64,000 nucleotides of DNA from contig NC_053409.1 of NCBI RefSeq assembly GCF_016859285.1, positions 21,399,976 through 21,463,975 of the forward strand, written 5' to 3'. The position numbers and the translations under genes are program-made. This document shows positions 24,116 through 63,561 of the stretch, in pieces (within the stretch, counting starts at the first letter, position 1; each line of letters opens with the position of its first letter). The notes below the pieces were generated by a model. The model saw nothing but the letters and a program-made list of their open reading frames with translations, did not search any database and was not told the origin of the DNA. This DNA is from Xiphias gladius (lineage: Eukaryota > Chordata > Actinopteri > Istiophoriformes > Xiphiidae).

Positions 24116-27100
24116 TCAATTTTTGCTCTTTTTTGTCGGGACGACAGCTTTTTGTTTTAGCCGTAGCCGACCCACAGTCCGTATAGGCAGAGAAGTGAGG
24201 AGGGCATCGCACCGAGAGATAAATACACGTACAGGTTTTTCTGTATCAGCCTGAGACGAGAAGCCTCTTGCTCTGGACCAGTACGGTATGCGTGTGTAAT
24301 AAAAACGTAAATACCTGTTTGGACGGGTCATCCCAGATGGGCCTGAAGGCACTTTTTGGATGTAGAGGCGGCGACCCTTTCCTGACGCTGACCAACCTCT
24401 TCCCGTAGGAGCTGACGAGACACGGCGTCGGCCCGTCCACACACGACCCGGCTTTGTTTCTCAGAGGAGGATGAGGGGTTAATCTGGGGATCTGCCACCT
24501 CAAACACACAGTCCTCTCCCTGGGCGGCTGCTGCTGCTGCTGCTGCTGGCTGTACGAGGGCTTTAACAGCACCGGCACCTGGCTGTCCTCCTCTTCATCA
24601 TCCCCGCTGTTGCTGCCCGTCATCTCCCTGCGCAGGGTGCCATCGGGGCTGCAGGAGGTGACAGAGGAGTAGTCGAAGGCCGAGGTGTCGTCGGGGTCAG
24701 TCTCGCAGTCCTCAAGGCTGCGGTTCCCAGGAGGTGCCTCCGGCTCGCTGGTGCCTTGGCCCGTGGGCTGGCTGAAGGTCCCCTGGCCCGAGTCGCTGTT
24801 TTCTCCCCATCCTGCAGCGTCCGGGGTGAGGAGGGAGCAGTAGGCGTGTCCGCAGCCGAGGGCCGGCTGGGTCAGAGCAGTCTGGTCTCTTCCACAGCCC
24901 TTCCTCCTCACCGGGCTGCAGGACCAGCACTCCAGGCGCATCGAGTGGTGGCCGTCCACCCCGTTTGTGAGGTTAACAGCCTGCTGGTCGTCTCTGAGGG
25001 AAGGACAGTGGACAGTTTTTAGTTACTTGTTACTTTGCTGATTCAGATTTTACATTCAACATGAGATAAGCTCATATTAGTATCGTTTTTCTTTATTTCC
25101 TAAACATTTCTTCCTTCTGTCCTCTTTTTTGCTGCTTTTCTTTTTCCTATCGTCTCCTCCTTTCTTCCTTCTGTTATTTCTCCTTTTCTGTTGCTTTCAG
25201 ATACTCGAACTCCTTTGCTTGCAAATCCTTTTTTTCCCACTTTTACCTAAGCCAAGGATCAGGGTGCTCCTTCCATAACTCTGCCACTTAACCTGGTTAA
25301 TGTGGCAGCTGCAAAACGCAGGGGGAACATCAGAACGATGCTTTTGTTGCCTTATTTACTGGAAAGTGTTTGCGTTCACATCTTCCTGTTCAGTGTGAGC
25401 TACGCGCCAACGTGGGTAAGGACTTGTGTTGAGCACCAAAAGAGGGAGGAGGATGAGAATTAACACTTCCCACCTCAAAGCGCAGAGTTGCACGTCGCTG
25501 CTTTACACATCACCCACATTAAAAACATCCAGCGCACCAGACTTCATTTATTTTCAGCTATCTTCCGCATGCTATGGCCCATTCAGCACAAAAGGGTAAC
25601 ACTGAATGTTTGCGAGCACAGTCTGCAAATGTTACTGTAGAAGGCTGGGACTTCCCACCAGCACATCATGAACGCACCAGCGTGACTGCATGTGTCAGAC
25701 TTCGCTGTCACTACCACACAACAACAATGCAACAGAACTGCATGATGCTCAGGTCTCGGCAAGCTGGTTTTCATGTTGTACCGAACTGAATGGAAATGCA
25801 AAGTAGAGAATTAAAATTCATGAGCTAAAGCCTGCCCAAAAACTCTTATGGGGCTCCAAGGTTTTTGCATGCAAATGTCACTGAAAACGACTTGTCTGAG
25901 CTTGACTGTGTTTTTCCCGCAGGCGTTCTCTTGGCCGCTGTGTGGTCGGAGGCCAACAGAGGGCGACACTCACCTGTGAGCAGCGGAGTTTGACTCCTTC
26001 CAGCCCCTCTGAGACTCTCTGGCCTGTTGGCTCCTTGTGCAACAGCTTGCAGAGGATCCACCGGCCACAGCATCAGGGCAGCTGCTGTTCATGCAAAGGA
26101 TGAATAGACATTCTTAACCCTGAACCTTGGTTAGAATCGAACAAACACAGGCTGCGATTATCAAACTATGACCGAGGGCTGTCCTCTGAAAAAGCAGCTG
26201 CCCCACAGTCACATACTGGATCCCCTGCCCCTCATCAAGCTCTGACCTCGGTCCAGCCCCTTCTCCTTCCTCCCAGCGGACGTCTTCCTCCAGAATCACA
26301 TGGCAGCGGGACAAAAGGCTCCTCAGCGCTCGCTCAGTGCCCAGGAGGAGGCTGCAGTCGGGATGCTCTTTGCCCGTCCACTGCAACAAGCTCTACAGAG
26401 GGAAAATAGGTGTGATTTTATTTTGAGTGGTTGGATACAATTTTCAGAATTAAAATTTAATTAAAGAAGAAATTAACTTAATATGTATTTGACCTTTAAT
26501 GTCTCCAAGTGTATCTAAACCTACTGAAAAGTGAAAGTGTCAGTAGAACTTTAATGTTTCTAAAAGTCTCCAACTATCATCCAAAAAACATCGTCATGGG
26601 TTTTATTTTCTCATCTGAATCATTTTGCGCTTGTGTTTTTCAGATGCTGGACGTCCCCTCCCTCGGCTCGGCCTGCTCAACTCTAGGGGTTACTGCGGTC
26701 CCCCGTCGGGTCGCCTCTTGTGTAGCCGCAGCTCCGCACACTGGGCGGCTGCGGCTGCTGACTCACCTGAATGTGACTCAGGTAGCCGTGTATGCGAGAC
26801 ACGGGTGCCAACAGCAGGGAGAGCAGTTTCACTTCCTCCCTCTCCATCTGGCCGCCCTGTTAAGTCAGAGAAAACTATCCATCAGCATATCTGGCCTGGC
26901 CAGTACATTTCGAGCGAGTTATATTACTGCTGTGTCGCTTATTGTACCTGCATTTTGTGGCCTCTCTCAGGACGATTCAGTCTGCTGAACTCCAGTGAGA
27001 GGAAGGACGCCAGGGTGGCCGTGTATCCAAGGTACGTATCTGAAAAAGCTGCCTGGACAACCCAAATTAGGATAAATATGAGCCATCCTGTCCCTCGACG

Positions 27101-29541
27101 TTCAGTGTAAAGGGGCTGAAATCATAAAAAAAAGTAGTAATAGAAAAATAAAAGAGCATCAACTTACGTCATTTTGGCCGATTAGCTGCACCAGGATGTC
27201 TCCAACCAGAGATTTCCAGTGTTCGGCGGAGAGTCGCTCCTGCAGGGTGTTTCTGAAGAGCAGGTGTCGCTGCAACAGCTGCTCCACAAACTTCAGATAT
27301 GTCTGACTGATTCAAAAAAAACAAAACAAAAAAAAACAAGACTTATGTTATGTAAAATAGAGGAGGAGAACATTTTCTGAATTTCTTGTTTTTGTCTTTT
27401 TTTTATGTAAAACCTGGACAATCGTGCTGATGCTAGATAGAAGATCATTTCATTTTAATTTCTGCCTCTGTGTTGCAGAATTACTGGGCCACGAAACATT
27501 TGCTCCCTTCGTGCAGTTGAAGGCCTTAGTTGCTGGGAGGAGAAAGTCTGATGTCTCTTCCCTTTCTAGTTACAGTCTGATAAGTTATATACACTGTTCA
27601 GCACTTACTGTGGCTCCACCGTCATCTGGTGAGCAGGTGGCGTCTTGTATTTTTCATAGAGCTGGTTTAAGGTCGAAACATACTCCCACTCCGAATGCAA
27701 AAGTTGCATCGCCACCTGATGTCGTGCATCTGTACAGGAAGGATAATATTTAGCCGCACAGATGTGCTTTTCACCTGGAATGTTTATTTTTCAAATGGCA
27801 TTCGGCCCTTGGTTCATGATCGAGCTTCGTGTGCAGTCTGATGGGCCGACATCTGCCGCCCCGGTGCTTTTTAGCAAGGTACTGAACAGTGGCCAACACC
27901 TTAAAATGAATTTTTCATCTGTTAAAAGTGGCGATTCGTGTCATTTATGTCTTTAGCTGCACTTCTTAGAAAGCACTCGCCAATCTAACAGCTCAGTCCT
28001 TCCTTTGATTATGTGTAAGCGAAGTTAAAGTTTCAGTAAGTATTCTCTCTTTTTTTGTTACCAGTGATGTTGATTCTCGCTGCTGAGGTTGATGCAACAT
28101 TTCTACTTCTATATATTGCAGAAAAGAAACCACTGTGGCTTGCTCCAGAAAAAAAAGCAAACAAATCCCTTATTACGGTGATTTTGTTCCTGACGTGTGT
28201 TGTTGTTGTGCAACTGTTTGAGGAAATTCGCCGTTATACGTTTCTGTAACACACCTGTGCCTTCACTCAGTCCCGCTTTGAGTCCCTGCAGGAAACAGTG
28301 GAGGAGCAGTTTTCCTCTGGACGGACAGGCGGGTGGAGCAGACGCGCGCTGGCCCCGTCCGCCGGCCGCCTCGGCTGCGTCGCTGCTGCACGACAACGGA
28401 CACGATGGCAACATGTCTGTCTGCAGGTTTTACACGCCTCTAGGTCATATTATAAAGCATAACATGCTGGGACACGTTGATGTGATGTGTGTTTCTATCA
28501 TACCATGCATGTAATCAGTGTCATGATATCGTGACTACATGAATCATTCTGTCCGTAAACAAACAAGAAAATCTTTGAAGAAGGTTTCAGCCTTTATCTT
28601 GCATTTGATGTATAAATCTGCCCAGTGTCTTTACAGCTCTGGGCTTGTTTGGCACAGAGCAGTATGGTGGCCCCTAAGAACACAACACATATAAAAGAGA
28701 CGAGCTCCACATCCAGAGTGCGTTTGCTTAATGTTTGTCTTTTCACTCGTGAATGTTGCATGGTTTTCGCAGCAGTTCTGGCTTTTCACACACATCTCCC
28801 TTAACGTTTGCCCTCTCACTCTACTGTTTAAACTGTGTGTGTGTCTTACCCTTCTCTCTGTTTCGATGTGGAGCTCTTTCCGCCCTGCTGAGGTCTCTGT
28901 CCGTCACTGTACAGCTGCAAGACCTGACACCGCATCACACCGAGTTCTTCCTGTAGGACGACAAAGCACTGAGACGAAATACAGCTTCACTGTCTGCAAC
29001 TAACTGAGCACCATCATGGATCCGTTATGGATGTATTCCCTGCAGTCAGAGGTTGAATACTCTCCAAACTGTCTCCGGTGCCTGTCTGTGTAGCTGTTGT
29101 GTGTATGTGACCAAACTTTTCACCTTTTGATTTGTATAATACTGAATGTTTAAAACCGATCTCTCGGGCCTCACCCTCAGCGACTCGACCAGAGCCTCCA
29201 GACGGAGCGCTTTCTTCTGGCAGCTCCTCCTGTTCTCCTCCATCTCCTCCCGCAGGAACGTGTCCCCGTGCTGGATCTGACTGAGCTCCAGCAGGGCGCC
29301 GGTGAAGCCCGTCTTCAGCTCCGAGACCATGCATTGCAGCTGACGGGACAGCGGGCGTGATATATTAGTCAGAAGTTTTAGATTTATTGACAATTTATTG
29401 ATTCACCGCTAATTTTGCGACTAACAAGAGCTTTTAATTCAAAGTGAACTGTCTCTTTAACAAAGCCAGGCTGGCTGATGAGGGAAAGGTGCAGAATACC
29501 TTGGAGATTTCAGTGACAAGCTCTGCCTCTTGAGGCTTCAT
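24116..29541 (-). CDS. ARHGEF33-type Rho guanine nucleotide exchange factor
   Basis: Twelve minus-strand exons join in phase: 29500-29541 (from ATG), 29175-29339, 28850-28914, 28255-28385, 27609-27729, 27168-27306, 26948-27052, 26767-26856, 26217-26392, 25974-26084, 24315-24993, 24116-24250; 652 residues. Residues 1-70 are a predicted coiled coil with LQCMVSELKTGFTGALLEL and LSQIQHG, which match my memory of the ARHGEF33 N-terminus. Residues about 139-325 are a DH domain: EWEYVSTLNQLYEKY (CR1-like), then DTYLGYTATLASFL and LLAPVSRIHGYLSHIQ, where DH domains have P-x-x-R-I-x-x-Y (CR3). No PH domain follows; the rest is Ser/Gln-rich and disordered. The ATG (29539-29541, GCCATGA) is the first in frame. 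Family assignment is firm; ARHGEF33 itself or a lost-in-mammals paralog is open. The last exon and 3' end are least certain. Confidence 0.87.
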
Positions 29542-33665: not shown

Positions 33666-36600
33666 CTTTCATCTGACTTCAGGTTGCAAATACAAAGAGA
33701 TCCGCAGGAGTCTACAAAGAGACGTTGGTAAGATGAACTTGATCCAAAACAACACTCTGGGACTGACTGATGTTGCCAGACTTGGTTCAAATTTGCATTC
33801 ACAAGTAGATTTTAGCTTTTATTTGAACTTTTTTGGAACACCTCGTACCAGTAGATTTAGGAAACGTAGTGTCTGAGAATGAGTTCAGAGAATCACATTC
33901 GGTAACGGTAATTCAGTGTACCTCTCTGTGACCGACACCTTTGTATAAATAGTCATGGTTCAAGATGTTCCACTGACCTCTTATTTTGTCATTGTTTAAA
34001 TTTTGTGTGAGCTACAATACGTCTGAATGTTTCTGGTTTTGACTGTGGAAGGTTTTATTCTCTTTTTTTCTAAACTGCTTTAGACACATTATGTTTTCCA
34101 CAGAAATTAATCTATATCCAGCCATGAATTATTTTGTTGATGTAAGAAAACCATATTTATAAAATGCAGGTTCATTGTTTGTAGAGCCGCAACACGTAGT
34201 TGTTTAATTGATTCTATGATCAACAGAAATTTAATCGGCAGCTATTTTGATAACTAATTATTTTTCAAGCAAAAATGAGACACTTTTGCAGATTCCAGCT
34301 TCTCATGTCAGAATTTGATGCTTTTCTTAGTGTGAGATTTAAGTGTGGGTTTTGATAATGTAGTTCTGACTTTATATCATCACTGCCTTTTTTTTTCTTC
34401 TTGTTAACAGAGGAGCTCCAGAACCAGGGGGTACAAGACGTGTTTGTTCTCTGCACCAGAGGGGAACTTAACAAGTACAGGGTCCCCTCCCTGCTGGAGG
34501 TCTACGAGCAGCGAGGCTTCGCAGTTCACCACATGCCCTTCCTAGACGGAGACGCTCCTGAGCTGGAGCAGTGCTGCCAGATCCTCGAGGAGCTGCAGGT
34601 CAGCCTCGACAGCAACAGGAGGACACTGATCCAGTGAGTGAAATCATCCATCAAACTGAGATTCAGAATTTAAAAAAAAAAAAAAAAAAAAGCTTTAAAA
34701 AGTCGCATCAGTGTTAAAAAAACATATACGAGGAGAACCTTTCTAATCACATAGAGTATTTCACGTTTCCCAGTATATCTGCCTCTTTGCTCAGGATAAA
34801 AATGGAACAGAAAATGGCGTCCGACACCTGCGGTTGATTTATTTTACCAGGCAGTCTCAAAGCGGTGTCAAAGAGGACATAAGAGTTGTCCTGCAAGTTG
34901 TCTTGGTTCCTTGCTTTAAAAAGAGACAGCAAAGACATGCACATGATGGCTCTCTGGATTCTCTAAATCTATTATTACTGGTAAAATCAGTTGCTCACTA
35001 ATCACGAACCTTGTTTTGTGGTCACACTTTTGTTTGTCATATTTTTCCAGCAAACCAACACATGTAGATACTTACAATACCTACAATTTGTAGATTGAAC
35101 TACTGTACAGAAGGTATGCCTTCTGTTTCTCTACCCAGATTATTAAACATCCCTTATTTCAAGATGCTTTTCCTTATAAAGATGAACTACTAACAGAACA
35201 AAATGTGTTGAGAGAGGATTTGTAAAAATCCAAAAAAAAACTTAAACTCAAGTGTGTGTACATGAACAGAGAAAGTTAGCGGGAATCGCTACAGCTACTG
35301 CGCTGAAACCCAGGACAATTAAAGGTTAAAAAATAGATGCAGCTAAACTTTCTATGACAAATTAAACTCTTTGTTTTTTAATATTTGAAGTATTTTTAAA
35401 CATTTTGAATCCTCAAATTTTGAATTAAGTGCCAGCCCTAGAGGACCAGGGCACATCTCACCACAAGGGCATCCACTTTCACAGCTCTGCGCGGGACACC
35501 TCTCGTTTACACAGCTGAGCAGTTTGCTTTCAGCTTTTAGCCGTGCATTTGATGGGAATTTGCACTTTTTTTTTTTCTTCTTCCCCTTCAGCTGTTTCGG
35601 AGGCCTCGGACGCTCTGCATTAAGTAAGAATGCTCTATTTCTACTTTTACTTTGAAAGTTACGCTCTGTTCTGTGTGTCACGTCAGTGTTATCCAGCTTC
35701 ATTGTGTGTTTTGTTGTGACAATTGATCTACTAAATACGTCAAAAAGTTTCACCTTTTTTTCAAAAACGCTAAATGCTCTCTTACTAGTTTTATGTCACT
35801 GCTCTGATCACATGACCGTCTCTTGTTTTCCTCCGTTCAGTCGCTGCCTGTCTGCTGCTTCAGCTCTCTTCAACAATGACAGCAAACAAAGCCATCGAAA
35901 TCCTCAGGGAGCACAGAGGAGGGGGGGCGATACAAACAGTGAAGGTGAGAGGTTACTGTTCTTCCTCTGAATGTGTAGTTTTAAAGGAGAGGCAATGGTG
36001 TATTTGCATGTTTTACCCCATTCACTTAAATTCCACGTTCATTTCAGTAATCTAAATGGATGAAAATGAATGTGCAGAGACTCAAGGCAGAAAATTTCGT
36101 CGCCTCATTTTCAGTGATGATGTTGTTGTTGTCATGTGATGAGGCAGGCTGCTGTGAGCGGGGCTCTGTTTTGAAAGCGCTTCCATGGTGCTGCGTTTAA
36201 GGCCGCTCCGACATTAGAGGTTTGGCTGCTGAAAAGCGCCCATGAGCTAAGGCAGTGAGGAAACATGGCAGGCGTGAGAAGGATGATGGTGAACTGGTCG
36301 CTCGATATTATTGGCCGATATTAGCTTAATACAGACATATCTGCGCTGCCATTTATGTCAGCTGATAAATAACAGGAAATTTTATTGCGGAAATGCTAAA
36401 AAAATGTGTTTGCAGTCTTTTTTTCATGTTTATGTTAAAAACTAATATATGCCAATATAACGTCAGTTCTTTGAAATCTCAATTATCGAAGTTGGTATTA
36501 GTTTAAGGACTCCAGTATTGGTCAGACTCTGGAATGAGTGTGGCAACATCTTCTATTTAAAATTACCCCTACCACTATCACTATATAATGACAATGTAAC

Positions 36601-44400: not shown

Positions 44401-45488
44401 AAACTTTTCAATTACTCTGACACAACAAACTCACCCTGTTATCCTTTTGGATATTTGCTTTGATCTAATTTTTTTTGTTCCTCGTTTAGTCTACGCATAT
44501 CAAGTTCCCAAAGCATCAAGGTAATGTTTTCATAATATGTGTCTGACCAAACTATCACCATACAAAAGAGAAACAATACAAAGCAATACACTCTTTGCCT
44601 AACGTTAACCCCCCCCCCCCCAATTTACCTCCTTCTTAGTAGGTTACACCAATTACATTGCTAAGTTTTATGTCCCTAGATTTATTTCATTCTATTTTGT
44701 CACTCTGAATAGGACGACTTTTAGAGTCATGGACACTTTACCGAAAAGTTTACACTCTGCACTGCTGTTGTCGACATTCTGACAGTAAAGCTAACGCTAT
44801 TACTAAACGAAGAAATGCGACATGTCAGGAGACAGGTAGAGATCAAGATAACGAGCGACGGCAGCATCGAAAGGGGTCTGTCCCCTCCACGATCGGAGGT
44901 TACCGTTAGTTAGCTAAGCCTGCTAACTAGCTGACTAGCTACCGGCTGAACACTAATAATTTGACAGTCCTGGCATGGCAATGGACGTTTGCTGCAACTG
45001 GACGGCGGTTAATAAAAGCTGAACAATGGAAAGAGATTACCATGTCACGACGCGTAAATAAAACAGTGCCTTGGTTTTCAAACCGCCGAATTTCACCTCC
45101 TGATCAACGGCTGGGTGTGTTCCATTCATTCTAGTACACAGCCGTTCTGGGATGAATGGGTCACATATACCGGGCACCGAGCGCGGTGTTTCTATGGAGT
45201 TGCCTTGGATACGTTCCATCCAGACGTTGACAAGATCGACGACCCGGCTACGTAAAACCCGAGAGCGTCCCGGATATGCGGCTACGACGCTGGCCTACCG
45301 TTAGCCCGCTGTTCGCCAGCCCTCCTCGCTCTTTCGGCTACTTTTACCGGCGCCGTGGGACTGGCAGGCCACCACTCTCGTCTCAAGTCGTCTGAACGTG
45401 TACTTACATGCCAGATAGCGAAGAAGATAAGCGCCGCCGTGAGCAGCAGGGCAAGCATATAACAAAAGGCCGCGAATGTGAACGCCAT
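39856..45488 (-). CDS. cnih1: Cornichon family AMPA receptor auxiliary protein 1 / ER export cargo receptor
   Basis: Five minus-strand exons in phase: 45408-45488, 44142-44210, 41169-41281, 40919-41062, 39856-39883; 144 residues, the same length as human CNIH1. The start [20 protein letters not shown], the middle [19 protein letters not shown], then [32 protein letters not shown] and the end MIYVLVSS are nearly those of human CNIH1. The protein is a small multi-span ER/Golgi membrane protein that recruits transmembrane cargo such as TGF-alpha precursors into COPII vesicles. The last exon carries only nine codons, including the stop. The promoter is in a GC-rich block with no divergent partner. 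CNIH2/3 are excluded because their extra loop insert is absent. Confidence 0.98.
40037..40680. mobile_element. TTAA-ended palindromic MITE
   Basis: Left end TTAAAGGAATAGTTTAACA, right end AAACTATTCGTTTAA, inverted copies with TTAA outermost. The inner blocks TTAGCTTAGCATACAGACTGG and GGAAACGGCTAGCCTG on the left reappear inverted on the right (GCTAGCTGTTTCC, AATGCTAAGCTAA), so the whole element is an imperfect palindrome. It is a common fish repeat; TTAA ends suggest a piggyBac-like mobiliser. Lies in the last cnih1 intron. Confidence 0.75.
41282..44141 (-). other. cnih1: cnih1 intron 2, unassigned
   Basis: 2.9 kb intron. On the plus strand 42214-42636 is open for 140 codons (starts [13 protein letters not shown]) without a recognised relative. 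On the minus strand 42736-42927 is a second open patch with a repeat-like look (GGTTCAGAGCAGATGGCTGC). Neither has a promoter or splice partners that I can support. Confidence 0.5.
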
Positions 45489-53400: not shown

Positions 53401-56400
53401 ATGAAAAAAATAAGTTTTTATTTTTGTTCATATTTTGCATTGCAAATGTGCTTGGTGTCTCTGCCTTCAGAGTCTACGCCATGCACACACACTCCTAAAA
53501 TAATCCAATCTAGCAGCAATGACATTTTGACACAGATGGTGGAGGATGAAGCTTAAGCTTGAGTTTGATGCTCAAGCTGATGCGACACTACGCTGTCACA
53601 CCACCTGCTGTATTTGATAGCATTCCTCTATCTGTATACTGTGGCTGGCTTACATATCCTAGTCAAATATCAAGTTATTTTTCCTGTTTTTTTTTTTTTT
53701 TTTTCATTACGTAGGTAGGTCTGACTGCGTGTGTTCACTGATAACACATCTGATTTCAGCCGTTGGCTGGAGCAGACTAGGAAGACTTTTAAGTCCAAAC
53801 ATGAAAGAGCTTTGCATTAAACAAACTCATTTAAATGAGTAGTTAGTTAGTTAGTTAGTTACATTTTAGGAAATACTCTTATTAGCTCATATATCAATCT
53901 TCCCATCTAACTGTTGGAAAGAAAGTAAATAAAATTAATTAAATGTTAAACTGTTCCTTTAAGGGCTAACAATTGCACATTAAGGTCGTCGACAGGCATA
54001 GTCATATTTAAGAGATTACTTTGTCTCATCCCTCTCTATGACGGCCGGCTCTTTTAACCTGCCTTTAGGTGTGGCCATTGAAAACAGACGTAAACGCTTC
54101 TGCTGCCCTACATGGTCAGACGACACATTCTGTGCACTAGTTCTTTTTGAGTAAAGCCTGGCCTTAATCCGAGCAGTAAGACCCCGGAGTTTGGTGAAAT
54201 TCTCCATTTTAAATGTCAGCTACCAGCGGCAGAACATCTGTGGACACAAGTGAGCTCGCCCCTGGATTTCAAAACCGCAATAAACAAAGCAGCTTGATTA
54301 GAAACTAAAACCTGTCTCTGAAAAGGCAAGAAGTGCGCGATGCAGTCGCCGAATCGCTGAATTGGGATTAATTTAAATGTTCGTTAATTTGGTGCAGAAT
54401 TTTAAAGAGGCAGCGTGTCGGCCTCCATTTTGTTCCACACAGCAGGAGGCGGTGACCAGTCTGCTTGCTGTGCCGGCTTTAATGATACATTTAACCCACG
54501 AGTATTGGCTTATGGTTTAGGCTTTACTTAAGGAAGGCACATTTTGGAAGGCAACCCAATTCTGCAAACTGCTAAGGATTTTGACTCCACAAAAACAAAG
54601 ATTCACATTGTAACACAGAAATAAAAACGAACAATAATCCACATCCTGTACTGTAATAATGGCACATTAATATTTCAGTGATTCCACTTTCACCTGTGAC
54701 TCCTCGCACTATCTGCGCGATTACTTTTTGACCTGGAACATATTATCAATAAATGTGCAAGAGAGGCAACTGAATGACACACAAGGTGTTGCCTGTACTC
54801 ACTGACGATGGCCGCATTATTGGTCTCCTTCCGGAAACGGAACTCCCTCAGCTTTTTAACCAGATCTTGATCCACGTCACACACCACCAGTGATTCACTC
54901 TGATTTAAAAAAAAAAAAAAAGGGGGGGGGGGTAGGCAAAGACGCTGATGTGGTCACTTAAATTTCAAATTCATAAACAACAGAAGTTATTGAGTTTTAA
55001 AAAATCCAACTGCACAATTCTTTATTTTTTTAAGTACAGAGTTGACAAACCAAAGCCTCGAGCTTTTGATTTAAAACGCACAGATCATAGTGTTCACCCG
55101 GACTAACCTAATGTGTCTGATTCACGGGTGAACGTTTGTAATATTTAGTACGAAAAGTGTTTGTTCCTCTGCCTTTCAGCTGCCAGCGAAACCGCACCTG
55201 TATCAGAAAGTGTGTCCACGCATCTACAGAATTAACTTCACTTCTTCCCGGCAGCCCGCATCCTTTATATCAGCTATACAACGTGCACTAAATTATTTTC
55301 TCCCCTCCTCACCATGCACTAATTCAGCTTTACATAGAGCTTATCTAGCACTATAAAGAAAGTGAACCAGACTGTCTCAGAAATGTGCTGGAAGTCATGA
55401 TACCCCTGTTATGGCTTTGTTTGATATGAAAAAGGGGACTGGAAGGTTGTGATTGATTTACTGTCATCCATGTTAAATGGACAGATTCCCTCCTGTCTGG
55501 CCACACGTTTACACAGAAAAACAACTCGAGAGTGTAAAGCAAACAACGTGTCTCAACACGTGTGTATGTCTGCAAAGGAGAACAGATACTCTTAATGAAC
55601 TGGGAAACACAGAAAAATAACTATTACAGTATGAATAACTGGCTAAAAGTGTACAGTATACCTGCCGAGGGTTTATATGTACGGTTAACAGCTGCAGAGT
55701 CTGCAGCTTTAAGTGGTTTCAATATGGTCTCAATGTTTTCTTTTTTTTAAAATCACAAAATGCCAGGTCTTATTCAATCATTTAACCGTTCCATTATAGT
55801 TTTTGTAGATTTGATTGGACTGCAACAACTAGATCCATTTTATTCTTCAATCATTTGGGCGAACAGTCACATTTTATGGCATTTAGTCTAAAAGAATACA
55901 AGAATATGCAGGATATTTCAAATCAACGTGAGTATTACATATGGATTTTTACGTGATCTTAAAGCCCTGTCTTATAGTAAGTCACTTCCCCCCTTCCTTT
56001 TTTTCCTGTTTCTTGTCTTTTTAAACCCTGACTTCACTGTGTCCATCCCACTTCTGATAGCAGACTAATGCCCTTGCTTATCGTTGCAGTAACTTGACAT
56101 TGAGCGTTCACCTCTTTTAAACTATCTTTCTGCAGGCGTCTAAACTGATCTGCAGGCTTTATCCAGCCCAAAAAAAAAAAAAAAAAGCCACCAGTCTCAA
56201 CAAGATTTCATTGGTCTGAACCTGTCACGTCCACACAAACACAGGATTACATAACTCCAGCACAGAGACATAAACTCTTCAAGAGTCTCTGCGGAGTCTC
56301 TGAATTCCCTGATTGCACCTTCCTGAACAGATGGCTGGTGGGAGTCGGGATTTTCACTGAGCCCAGGGAGAGAGGGATCTTTGCAGATTAAAAAGAGACG

Positions 56401-60406: not shown

Positions 60407-60480
60407 TGTGTCTCTGTGTCTGTGTGCGTGCGTGCGTGCGCCTTTCAGAATACGTCATCAGTCCTTCCTCTTCATGAGTT
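58440..60480. other. Intergenic gmfb to mapk1ip1l/lgals3, nothing coding
   Basis: Two kb between divergent genes. Contains T runs (58657-58681, 58902-58917), an A run at 59369-59383 and an AT-rich stretch near 59890-59990 with repeated TATAAA-type words that looks like an old repeat. No exon or RNA gene recognised. Confidence 0.6.
60371..60432. repeat. (TG)n microsatellite with TGCG end
   Basis: About 17 TG units followed by TCTGTG and GCGTGCGTGC variants, about 630 bases before the coding start of the next gene. Confidence 0.9.
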
Positions 60481-60640
60481 GTAGTTGTGTCTGCGATCAG
60501 ATCTGACGTTAGCTTGTAGTCCTGTCCCCTCGGCAGGCTAAATTAGCTGGCTAACTGGCTCCCACAGCTGGATAAATCATCGTTGTAACCCGCTACCATC
60601 ACCTGAAAGGAGTCCGTCTTCTGGCGAGGTAGCATGAAAT
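60480..60640 (+). promoter_or_regulatory. Probable promoter and non-coding first exon, mapk1ip1l/lgals3 locus
   Basis: The coding start exon at 61057 has a clear acceptor (TTTTCTTGTAG), so an upstream non-coding exon must exist. A possible donor is CTGGCGAG|GTAGCA at 60628. Placement is approximate. Confidence 0.35.
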
Positions 60641-61059
60641 ATCAGCTTTTACTTACTTTACACCCCCCCACACCCCCCCTGACACCGTGAAGCTAAAATA
60701 AACAAACGAGCTAACCATCTGAACGTTAACTTACAGTTAGCTGCTGTTAGCTAAGTCCGTAGCCAACTGTGTAACACCAGTTAACTAGGTATTTTAAGAA
60801 CTAAATCCCCGTCAATGTGCAGCTAAAGTCAGCGTAGCTTCTGTGAAGCTTGTCGTAAAAATATTCCAGTTAAGTCAAGCCGTTCGGACTCTGCTCAAAT
60901 GGATTTTGTCGATCAGCAGTCGGGGATGGAAAGATTTACTCTGCCATTACTCAGAGCCTCTGTGTGACATGCCTTCCAGTGTTTGACAGCTTGTTATAAT
61001 CGGTTGTTATAGCCACTTAGTTAAACTAATGAAAGTTGTGTCTTGTTTTCTTGTAGATC

Positions 61060-62330
61060 ATGGCAGATTTCTCGGTGAGTTCCTCATTTTATGATGTTTT
61101 TTATTTACTGGTAGCCAGTGGTTAAAGGCATCTAGTACTGTGGCCGGAGAGAGTCAATTTTCCATTGTCCCCTACTGCAGCTGGCAGATGCTTTAGGAGA
61201 TGACACCCTGGGCCAGGCAAAGAAAACAGGCAACACTAACCCGTCGGCCCCTGCCAGCAATCCTCCACCTCCTACAAATCCAGGATGGCCTGGTTCAGCC
61301 CCCGGAGCTCCCACCCAGCCCTCTGCTCCGGGTGACTTCGCTGGCGGATCATCAGGCCCGGGAGCGCCAGGGCAGTTCCCGTTCCCCTCTGGTCCTGGAG
61401 CACCAGGGCAATACCCAGGACCTCCTTCAGCACCCGGTGGGTTCCCCCCTGGTCATGGGATACCGGGACAATATCCACCTGCACCAGGAGCACCAGGGCA
61501 GTTCCCCTCCAGCCCTGGAGCCCCTGGGCAGTTCCCTGGGCAATACCCGCCTGAAGGAGCTCCGGGACAGCTACCTGGAGGCCCTGTTCCATACCCAGGT
61601 GGACCATTTCCTTCTGGCCCTGGAGCTCCCCCTGGGCCTTATCCAAATGTGCCTTACCCAGGTGGCCAGCCAGGAGGAGGCAATGGCATGTATGGACCAG
61701 GTGGTCCAGGTGGATTCCCCCCACCAGCTGGCCCCGGCTCTTTCCCTGCATTCCCTGCTGGAGGCTTTCCCCCAATACCCCCTGGGTCATGGGGACCTGC
61801 GGGTGGAGGCTTCCCTCCTGCTCCTGGCCACTTTGGTCCCGCCCCTGGGCCTATGGGTCCATATGGTGGGCCTGCAGCTCCAGGAGGCATGCTGGTGAGT
61901 ACTAACGCTGCTTACAAATAACATTATAATGCTTGCTTGCTGCATTTCCTTGCTGCTGTGTTTTTGCTCTGGTGTGCAGTGGTGTGGCAATCTTTGGGAT
62001 TTGGGATGGGAAATTATAACCGGCTACCAGCTAAATGTACTTAAATCTTTCACTGTGGCTGTCAAGTTCATCAACACTGCCAGCCACTTTATTAGGTCAC
62101 CTGCTATCTAGATATTCAGCTCTACTCTAGGAAGGTTTCCGGCCTTGTGGGTAATTGCTGCAGGATGGGGAATTTTCTGTCAGGGCTGCATTTGGAAATA
62201 TTTTCTCTGTGTCTTTGGCTCTGCTGAGGTGCAAAGCAAAACATAAAGTAGAATCAACAACTATTCACAAGTAGTTATCAAAAAATGTATTCTTGTCTTT
62301 CAGCCCAGATATAATCCACCATATAATTGA
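61060..62330 (+). CDS. mapk1ip1l: MAPK1IP1L-like proline/glycine-rich protein (short terminal-exon form)
   Basis: Exons 61060-61074 (MADFS), 61181-61894 and 62304-62330 join in phase to 251 residues. The third exon has a strong acceptor (TTCTTGTCTTTCAG), encodes PRYNPPYN and a stop, and is followed by ATTAAA at 62620-62625 with a GT/T-rich element after it. The N-terminus FSLADAL and GWPG, the length, and inner pieces NVPYPGGQPG and PPGSWGP resemble human MAPK1IP1L (245 residues; FSLADAL, GWPG, NMPYPSPG, PPGAWGP as I recall). The protein is low-complexity, rich in Pro, Gly and Ala, with several PGAPGQFP/PGQYP units, and has no known enzymatic domain. The same two first exons could instead serve as the N-terminal tail of galectin-3, so the gene name is provisional. 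Confidence 0.68.
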
Positions 62331-62619
62331 AAGCAATGAACTCAACTTTTCAGTCGGACAAGGACGTCACTTCCAGACTCAACATATGGTTTGATTAGTG
62401 CCAAAGACTGAAAATATATACACAGTATACATTTACAGTTTTTCTTTAATCCACCAGGGGGATGTAATGTTTTAATTTAATGCAATATGATTTAAAATTA
62501 CACTTTTACACAAAACTAATACATATAACATGTTAAGACACGTTTGTATTCTCTGTTAAAATCACTTTGTACGTTATCATTATTTCCACATTGACTTGTC
62601 ACTTTTGTACATGATTATA

Positions 62620-62625
62620 ATTAAA
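62620..62625 (+). terminator. ATTAAA polyadenylation signal of the short form
   Basis: ATTAAA followed directly by AGGTGTTTGTTGTTTTCTGT, a GU/U-rich downstream element as found at real cleavage sites. It is 290 bases after the short-form stop codon and before the galectin CRD exons. Confidence 0.6.
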
Positions 62626-63071
62626 AGGTGTTTGTTGTTTTCTGTCACTTTGCTCTGAAGTCCCTCTGTACAGTTGATGCCTTGATGCTGTAAAAATGTT
62701 GAAAACAGATTTTACTTTTTCATTGTCTCAACTACTCATTGTGAATTGGGTAAGAGTGGAAAGAGGTGATGACTCACAGGGGTGTTACTGTAGGAATGTG
62801 GGCAGGGTCAAAGTTTTGAAGAATGTTTAACTAAAGATTCCCACTTGTTTCAATGACATAAGGCACTTCGCTGTGTATTACCAAGTTCAGACTATTGTGA
62901 GCCTTTCTGCATTTGCCCAAGGGGATATAATCAGCAGGGTAAACAATATTTGCATTTTCCATGTTTTGCTTAATTAACATAGTGAGTGATTTAAAAAAAA
63001 AAAATACATAAGCAGAAATCAACTTCATTTCAAAATAAAACATCATAAATAAATATAGATATTTCCTGCAG

Positions 63072-63561
63072 ATGGTGCCGTATGATCTCCCTCTTCATGC
63101 TGGAATTATGCCACGACTTTTGATCACAGTAGTCGGGGAACCCATACCTGGTGCAGACAGGTATGAACAAGATTCAGCCTCCAGTCCTACTTTCAGTGAT
63201 GCTTTGTGTTTGGGGAAGAAACATAACTGATACCTCATAATAACCCTGCATCAGCCCTAATCCAGATCATGGCAATGTTGTCATCGTCAACATACAGTTC
63301 ACACTGGTCAAACATCCTCATTGTTTAATGCACATCATTAACGCACATCATTATGATCATTTTTATTTAGTTATTTATATTACTATTATTTTATTTTTTT
63401 GCAGGTTCCAAGTCGACTTCATCAAAGGTCAAGACGTCGTCTTTCATTTCAATCCTCGATTTTATGAGCAAACTATTGTTAGAAACTCCAACCTCGGTGG
63501 AAGTTGGGGGCCGGAGGAGCGGGAAGGAGGCTTCCCATTTGTTGAGGGACGGCGTTTTGAG
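63072..63561 (+). CDS. lgals3: Galectin-3 carbohydrate-recognition domain exons (gene runs off the window)
   Basis: Exons 63072-63160 and 63405-63561 encode the first two thirds of a galectin CRD: VPYDLPLHAGIMPRLLITVV, then DFIKGQDVVFHFNPRF and WGPEEREGGFPF. The sugar-contact set H-NPR, N (in NSN) and W-x-x-E-x-R is intact, so beta-galactoside binding is expected. Among galectins the MVPYDLPL...PR start is that of galectin-3. The first exon starts in phase 0 with ATG and can be spliced to 61894 (phase 0), giving a chimera-type galectin with a 243-residue Pro/Gly tail, about twice the human tail. The final exon(s), about 50 residues, lie beyond 64000. An A run and 1.2 kb of non-coding sequence separate it from the short-form exon. 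Confidence 0.9.

Follow-up and report, generated by a model that had tools for sequence, protein, structure and literature searches.

Galectin-3 is a chimera galectin, in which a proline- and glycine-rich (Pro/Gly-rich) tail is joined in frame to one carbohydrate-recognition domain (CRD), and we know of no settled account of how this unusual tail originated. The human proteins MAPK1IP1L and LGALS3 (galectin-3) both start with FSL-DAL plus GWPG; we take MAPK1IP1L to be 245 amino acids (aa) long and the LGALS3 tail to be ~115 aa. In 64,000 nucleotides (nt) of Xiphias gladius DNA (contig NC_053409.1, positions 21,399,976 to 21,463,975, forward strand), a stretch that we refer to as the window, one Pro/Gly-rich exon can apparently be spliced either to the CRD exons of galectin-3 or to a short terminal exon that would give a CRD-less protein resembling MAPK1IP1L. 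A sequence-only reading of this stretch had suggested that the two genes may form one transcription unit here, with alternative last exons. Immunoglobulin mu is the familiar example of such an arrangement, as its secreted and membrane forms result from alternative last exons, between which 3' splice sites and poly(A) sites compete. The window gene would share with it an upstream terminal exon that has its own poly(A) signal and stands against splicing to downstream exons, while differing in that its two products would correspond to two differently named mammalian genes.

Published accounts cover both the mammalian and the fish counterparts. Human LGALS3 has six exons, with the first six residues in exon II and the repeats in exon III (PMC5855601). 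MAPK1IP1L and LGALS3 adjoin in the same orientation in macaque (table in PMC10415907), and one interval of human chromosome 14 includes CDKN3, CNIH1, GMFB, SOCS4, MAPK1IP1L, LGALS3, and DLGAP5 (PMC6110470), which agrees with the earlier description of the two as separate human neighbors on 14q22. In the croaker Larimichthys crocea, galectin-3 (LcGal-3) has an open reading frame (ORF) of 384 aa and 38.17 kDa that was taken from a transcriptome and PCR-cloned (PMC10380712). Among the literature titles listed, none concerned a gene shared by MAPK1IP1L and galectin-3.

The window gene is made up of the following features, in which splice-site bits refer to a matrix of the vertebrate consensus and UTR stands for untranslated region.

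60608..60623, plus strand: 3' end of exon 1 (5'UTR), located with the croaker quantitative PCR (qPCR) primer qGal-3-F
61057..61074, plus strand: exon 2, start codon and MADFS (ATGGCAGATTTCTCG), ending in phase 0, donor GTGAGT of 9.3 bits
61181..61894, plus strand: exon 3, shared Pro/Gly-rich tail, 714 nt, 238 codons, phase 0 at both ends
62304..62330, plus strand: predicted alternative last coding segment, acceptor TTGTCTTTCAG, PRYNPPYN-stop, 8 codons, phase 0
62331..62650 (3' end approximate), plus strand: predicted 3'UTR of the short form, with ATTAAA and a GU-rich stretch
63072..63160, plus strand: CRD exon 1, 89 nt, acceptor TTTCCTGCAG of 7.07 bits, second best of 56 in the intron
63405..63561, plus strand: CRD exon 2, with the sugar-binding motifs HFNPR and WGPEE
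L002:2209-2364, beyond the window: last CRD exon, ending in APSMI-stop

Exons 2 and 3 joined to 63072-63160, 63405-63561, and L002:2209-2364 form an open long frame of 376 aa. CRD exon 1 is entered in phase 0 and reads MVPYDLPLHAG..., with its first codon, ATG, serving as an internal codon. The CRD matches Pfam PF00337 at 9e-39, and its best single-domain PDB match is galectin-3 (up to 141 bits), an alignment that extends to the galectin-3 C-terminus; four two-domain galectin-9 and galectin-8 chains total higher because two domains are summed. The C-terminal CRD carries H-NPR and WG-EE, the Pro/Gly-rich tail is in frame with it, and human LGALS3 has a matching plan of six exons: the UTR exon, one for the first residues, one for the tail, and three for the CRD. 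In exon plan, in-frame tail with one CRD, and motifs the window form thus agrees with galectin-3 (LGALS3), of which LcGal-3 (PMC10380712) is a fish orthologue.

The LcGal-3 primers given there fit the window model at the exon 1/2 and exon 2/3 junctions, in exon 3, and in the last exon. Primer qGal-3-F spans the first of these junctions, covering 60608-60623 and 61057-61063 with 2 mismatches, and the qPCR reverse primer matches exon 3 at 61267-61286 with 3. Of the cloning primers, the forward one falls on the exon 2/3 junction (3 mismatches) and the reverse one at the end of the final CRD exon (2 mismatches). Because these primers fit the exon junctions of the window model, the junction between 61894 and 63072 is very probably real. 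The window form has a mass of 37.6 kDa, compared with 38.17 kDa for LcGal-3, and we regard the long form as almost certainly genuine by orthology with the cloned croaker ORF.

If the croaker exon 1/2 junction holds in this fish, intron 1 (60624-61056), with boundaries GCGAGGTA...TCTTGTAG (CTTCTG/GCGAGG ... TTGTAG), is apparently a GC-AG intron, because qGal-3-F joins 60623 to 61057. A GT donor located 5 bases downstream of the GC donor is weak, at 3.9 bits. Around exon 1, positions 60450-60950 contain 19 CpGs, with an observed/expected ratio of 0.74 versus a window median of 0.485. Exon 3 is preceded by CTACTGCAG (acceptor of 8.6 bits) and followed by GTGAGT (donor of 11.1 bits), and it has no other match in the assembly. 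No match to the tail was found in Pfam or PDB, and no relatives were found in viral contigs.

For the short ending, the earlier claim that exon 61181-61894 ends in phase 0 and can join either 62304 or 63072 proved right in its coordinates, and both spliced frames are open, the short one encoding 251 aa and no CRD. The ATTAAA and GU-rich element claimed behind the short tail were likewise found, at 62620-62625 and in a following stretch with 18 of 20 bases G or T. Of the 56 AGs scored in the intron, the 62304 acceptor ranks first, at 9.99 bits, and among the 3982 of the window it ranks 36th. Two acceptors of the same phase are available to exon 3, and the upstream exon has its own poly(A) signal, the arrangement that defines alternative last exons. 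The predicted short form would be somewhat likelier than not to be used. A stronger, though indirect, argument than these signals is that, this ending apart, the assembly searches brought up no CRD-less MAPK1IP1L. The accessible part of PMC10380712 does not describe a second, CRD-less ending within intron 3 of croaker LcGal-3.

To ask whose tail this is, we compared it with unverified human MAPK1IP1L and LGALS3 sequences, expressing likeness as z scores over 300 or 1000 shuffles. Over the whole tail, z was 7.1 for MAPK1IP1L and 4.7 for the LGALS3 tail (0/300 shuffles each). For the first 45 residues, it was 6.3 for MAPK1IP1L (0/1000) and 3.0 for the LGALS3 tail (9/1000). By these z scores MAPK1IP1L is favored by the first 45 residues, and the repeat-rich remainder is non-discriminating; the tail as a whole is closer to human MAPK1IP1L than to the LGALS3 tail, chiefly because of its start. 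Its length (243 aa, or 251 aa for the short form) also fits better with MAPK1IP1L than with the human LGALS3 tail, which is about 115 aa. With MAPK1IP1L the candidate shares the FSLADAL start, GWPGS, PPG(S/A)WGP, a nearly equal length, and a location beside galectin-3 CRD exons. It differs from it in gene structure, since MAPK1IP1L is a separate gene in mammals, whereas the window candidate has all of its exons but the last in common with galectin-3.

A second gene of this kind was sought across the assembly (690.8 Mb in 1298 contigs) with a signature consisting of a CAG acceptor and codons for (L/F)ADA(L/F), and 301 bases were fetched at each of the 46 sites other than the window's. Among the 47 matches, a Pro/Gly-rich frame opens at the window's only, where the P+G fraction is 0.38 over 60 residues; at the other 46 it is at most 0.20, counted up to the first stop or for no more than 60 residues. 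As only the window's site is Pro/Gly-rich, no second MAPK1IP1L-like gene was found in this way. A looser contiguous pattern gave 101 matches, and among the 100 listed, the 7 that spell F-S-(L/F)-A-D-A-(L/F) had no Pro-rich frame; these 7, all with A rather than S or T, were the sites read. A protein search of the genome with the 251-aa form returned only itself. Taken together, the signature and protein searches brought up no second FSLADAL Pro-rich tail gene in the 690.8 Mb, in line with what the sequence-only reading would predict.

We also looked between the two endings for a separate lgals3 start. There is no Pro/Gly-rich frame in 62331-63071, and 62650-63071 contains a single CpG (observed/expected 0.08, versus 0.74 at 60450-60950). 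A separate start in 62.33-63.07 kb was rejected on account of the missing frame and the CpG-poor 62650-63071. The CRD exon opens at 63072-63074 with an in-frame ATG, and CpG content there shows no sign of a promoter. Since this ATG is in frame, a transcript starting in the preceding intron could yield a prototype galectin.

Because the shared exons belong to a chimera galectin, no separate lgals3 start is seen, and no second FSLADAL Pro-rich gene was found, the best reading of the locus is one transcription unit with alternative last exons that serves as both mapk1ip1l and lgals3, a reading to which we give slightly better than even confidence. The unit would start near 60.6 kb, with exons 1-3 supplying the 5'UTR, MADFS, and the 238-residue Pro/Gly-rich tail, followed by either of two alternative sets of last exons, each entered in phase 0. 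With 63072 as the acceptor, the product would be the chimera galectin-3, tail plus CRD, of 376 aa. Use of the exon at 62304, with its stop and cleavage near 62.65 kb, would produce the 251-aa CRD-less protein, which would act as MAPK1IP1L. Which product is made would depend on how the upstream acceptor, which is stronger and has its poly(A) site, competes with the weaker one 768 nt downstream. That the short ending is used, that its product is MAPK1IP1L, and that the two acceptors compete in this way are inferences. The earlier proposal of a single unit thus stands as regards the shared first exons, which the croaker primers assign to a chimera galectin, the missing separate start, and the missing second tail gene; the 62304 ending has the standing of a prediction.

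Several observations weigh against the single unit. By themselves, the short-ending signals exceed chance only modestly: chance levels were set with 1000 dinucleotide shuffles of the intron interior and 109 half-overlapping window tiles, and an equally good acceptor arose in 166 of the 1000 shuffles, while acceptor, poly(A) signal, and GU stretch arose jointly in 23 of the 1000 shuffles and in 6 of the 109 tiles. This ending is predicted from the sequence signals of one fish genome. Past residue 45, the tail gave z 2.7 for MAPK1IP1L versus 3.3 for the LGALS3 tail (1/300 each), the human MAPK1IP1L and LGALS3 tails are themselves alike (z 5.4, 0/300), and both human sequences used in these comparisons were unverified. 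The most CpG-rich stretch nearby is at ~57.75-59 kb, beyond exon 1, and not at 60.5 kb; it may be part of a gmfb-like gene on the opposite strand. The human MAPK1IP1L query gave one genome match, at E 0.84, and missed even the window exon, which makes the protein-level absence tests weak. A mapk1ip1l gene that is diverged, lacks the motif, or falls in an assembly gap between the 1298 contigs may exist.

The main competitor to the single unit is an ordinary galectin-3 gene, in which exons 1-3 would be lgals3's own, the 62304 acceptor would be unused or rarely used, and a stand-alone MAPK1IP1L would have been lost or missed. The exon plan identical to that of human LGALS3 and the cloning of the long form in croaker (PMC10380712) count in favor of this account. 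It is equally at ease with short-ending signals near the chance level, and with the likeness of the tail to LGALS3 (z 4.7), which beyond residue 45 is no smaller than that to MAPK1IP1L. It sits less well with the length of the tail and its first 45 residues, which suit MAPK1IP1L better, and it would leave the best acceptor of the intron unused despite the complete terminal-exon signals behind it. We consider this account possible, with a chance well short of even.

Two independent genes, with an lgals3 promoter and first exon in 62.65-63.07 kb and possibly a prototype galectin from the ATG at 63072, would suit the ATG at the start of the CRD exon and the seven GT donors of 4.8-7.1 bits in 62305-63071, but are very improbable given the one CpG in 62650-63071, the lack of any Pro/Gly-rich frame there, and the croaker primers, by which the start in exons 2/3 and the end of the CRD belong to a single ORF (PMC10380712). 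The alternative raised in the sequence-only reading, that lgals3 has its own unseen start and the sharing is chance, is improbable likewise, as no start is visible in 62.33-63.07 kb and the croaker primers tie the front exons to the CRD.

If the single unit is accepted, its history could have taken either of two courses, on which other galectins of the genome bear. PF00337 matched at 31 places in the genome, and Pro/Gly-rich frames were present near these matches (~1.5 kb on each side) at three places outside the window gene. One of these, on contig 4 at 17.2262-17.2281 Mb, minus strand (L011, L027), encodes another galectin of the chimera type, which has a Pro-rich tail of its own. Its tail exon starts HSDAL, possibly after ATGGAA, and ends SGPL; its first CRD exon, equal in length to the window's at 89 nt, starts SVPYNLNLARG, and the CRD ends VETLP. 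Among single-domain chains, galectin-3 is the best match of this CRD, at 134 bits. The junction SGPL/SVPYNL looks like that of human LGALS3. The intron between tail and CRD exon is 99 bp and leaves no room for a terminal exon, so two endings are conceivable in the window gene but not in this chimera gene. The contig 4 tail gave z 1.4 with LGALS3, -0.8 with MAPK1IP1L, and 3.8 with the window tail (1/300). Its likeness to the human tails is not significant in either case, and that to the window tail is moderate, so it does not decide between the two courses.

The other two places are on contig 7, near 2.615 and 24.70 Mb (L031, L032), where each Pro/Gly-rich frame lies between two CRD matches; for this reason they are probably linkers of tandem-repeat galectins. 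A galectin CRD on contig 1104 at 12.6-13.2 kb (L012, L025) resembles the contig 4 gene and ends TESLP, with no Pro-rich frame within ~1.5 kb.

One possible course is a secondary rewiring of an ancestral tandem of MAPK1IP1L and LGALS3, in which lgals3 lost its exons 1-3 by deletion and mapk1ip1l took over the CRD exons by way of the intron of matching phase 0. Such a rewiring is a version of the single-unit reading, and its competitor is a preserved ancestral unit; granted the single unit, we see the two as evenly balanced. The rewiring would account for a window tail that starts like MAPK1IP1L and for the contig 4 chimera galectin, with its different tail, its SGPL/SVPYNL junction, and its equal 89-nt exon; macaque, moreover, retains two co-oriented genes (PMC10415907, table). 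The contig 4 tail, with the z scores given above, is too diverged to date the split. The earlier suggestion that this unit would preserve or re-create a common tail origin is one possibility; given the different tail and LGALS3-like junction of the contig 4 gene, the window gene could instead be a later rewiring, with its front end from MAPK1IP1L and its back end from galectin-3. The direction of evolution that we discuss is an inference.

The neighborhood of the window gene on contig 10 (21.400-21.464 Mb) contains the following marker exons.

34473..34634, plus strand: cdkn3-like exon, Pfam PF05706 at 1.1e-14, a synteny marker with human 14q22
45348..45488, minus strand: cnih1-like exon 1, best PDB match Protein cornichon homolog 1 (3e-12, residues 2-38 of 47), Pfam Cornichon below its cut-off
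54792..54890, minus strand: gmfb-like exon, best PDB match glia maturation factor beta (2.8e-10, residues 1-30 of 33)

Pfam gave no match for the gmfb-like exon, which is a very short piece, and a genome search for CDKN3 found no match in the assembly besides the window's. With marker exons at 34.5, 45.4, and 54.8 kb, the window gene occupies the genomic place of MAPK1IP1L, in a block with CDKN3, CNIH1, and GMFB and beside LGALS3. A galectin-related gene is also on contig 10, at 21.988-21.989 Mb, and its middle exon lacks H-NPR; its location fits the LGALS3-LGALSL2 linkage reported in PMC10343441. The socs4-like gene is on contig 1, at 31.455 Mb. In the 30 kb around it, tblastn found no match to the CRD, and the human query piece reached E 0.001 at best, in Pro-rich sequence whose start is not FSLADAL.

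Downstream of the galectin gene, L002 contains a PDZ exon (Pfam), presumably of a synj2bp-like gene. Between the two, L002:3500-3900 looks, on inspection by eye, like the 3' portion of a degenerate Tc1-like transposase gene. Coding-looking frames were also seen on the minus strand of the window at 24321-29357, between the sos2-like and cdkn3-like genes; those at 24321-24962, 26195-26383, 26695-26859, and 29157-29357 matched no Pfam family. A codon-usage scan of the window was too noisy for calling genes.

If the single unit is true, its mechanism, alternative last exons, would be ordinary, and the surprise would be in which two proteins share a front end. A tail exon that can end either way gives a testable origin for the tail of galectin-3: a dual-ended gene that split in the mammal line, or a fusion in the fish line. 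There are also practical effects. Croaker galectin-3 expression has been published as "ubiquitous" and infection-induced (PMC10380712). Because the qPCR primers lie entirely in shared exons of the window model, these measurements could not separate lectin from CRD-less transcripts, if the latter exist in croaker. Knockouts at the shared exons would remove both products, if both exist. Tentatively, and with a likelihood somewhat below even, what is called galectin-3 here, and perhaps in spiny-rayed fishes generally, may be a MAPK1IP1L-galectin fusion made by last-exon choice, in which one promoter and one tail would serve both proteins, the splice choice would set their balance, and the tail would have been acquired from MAPK1IP1L or never separated from it.

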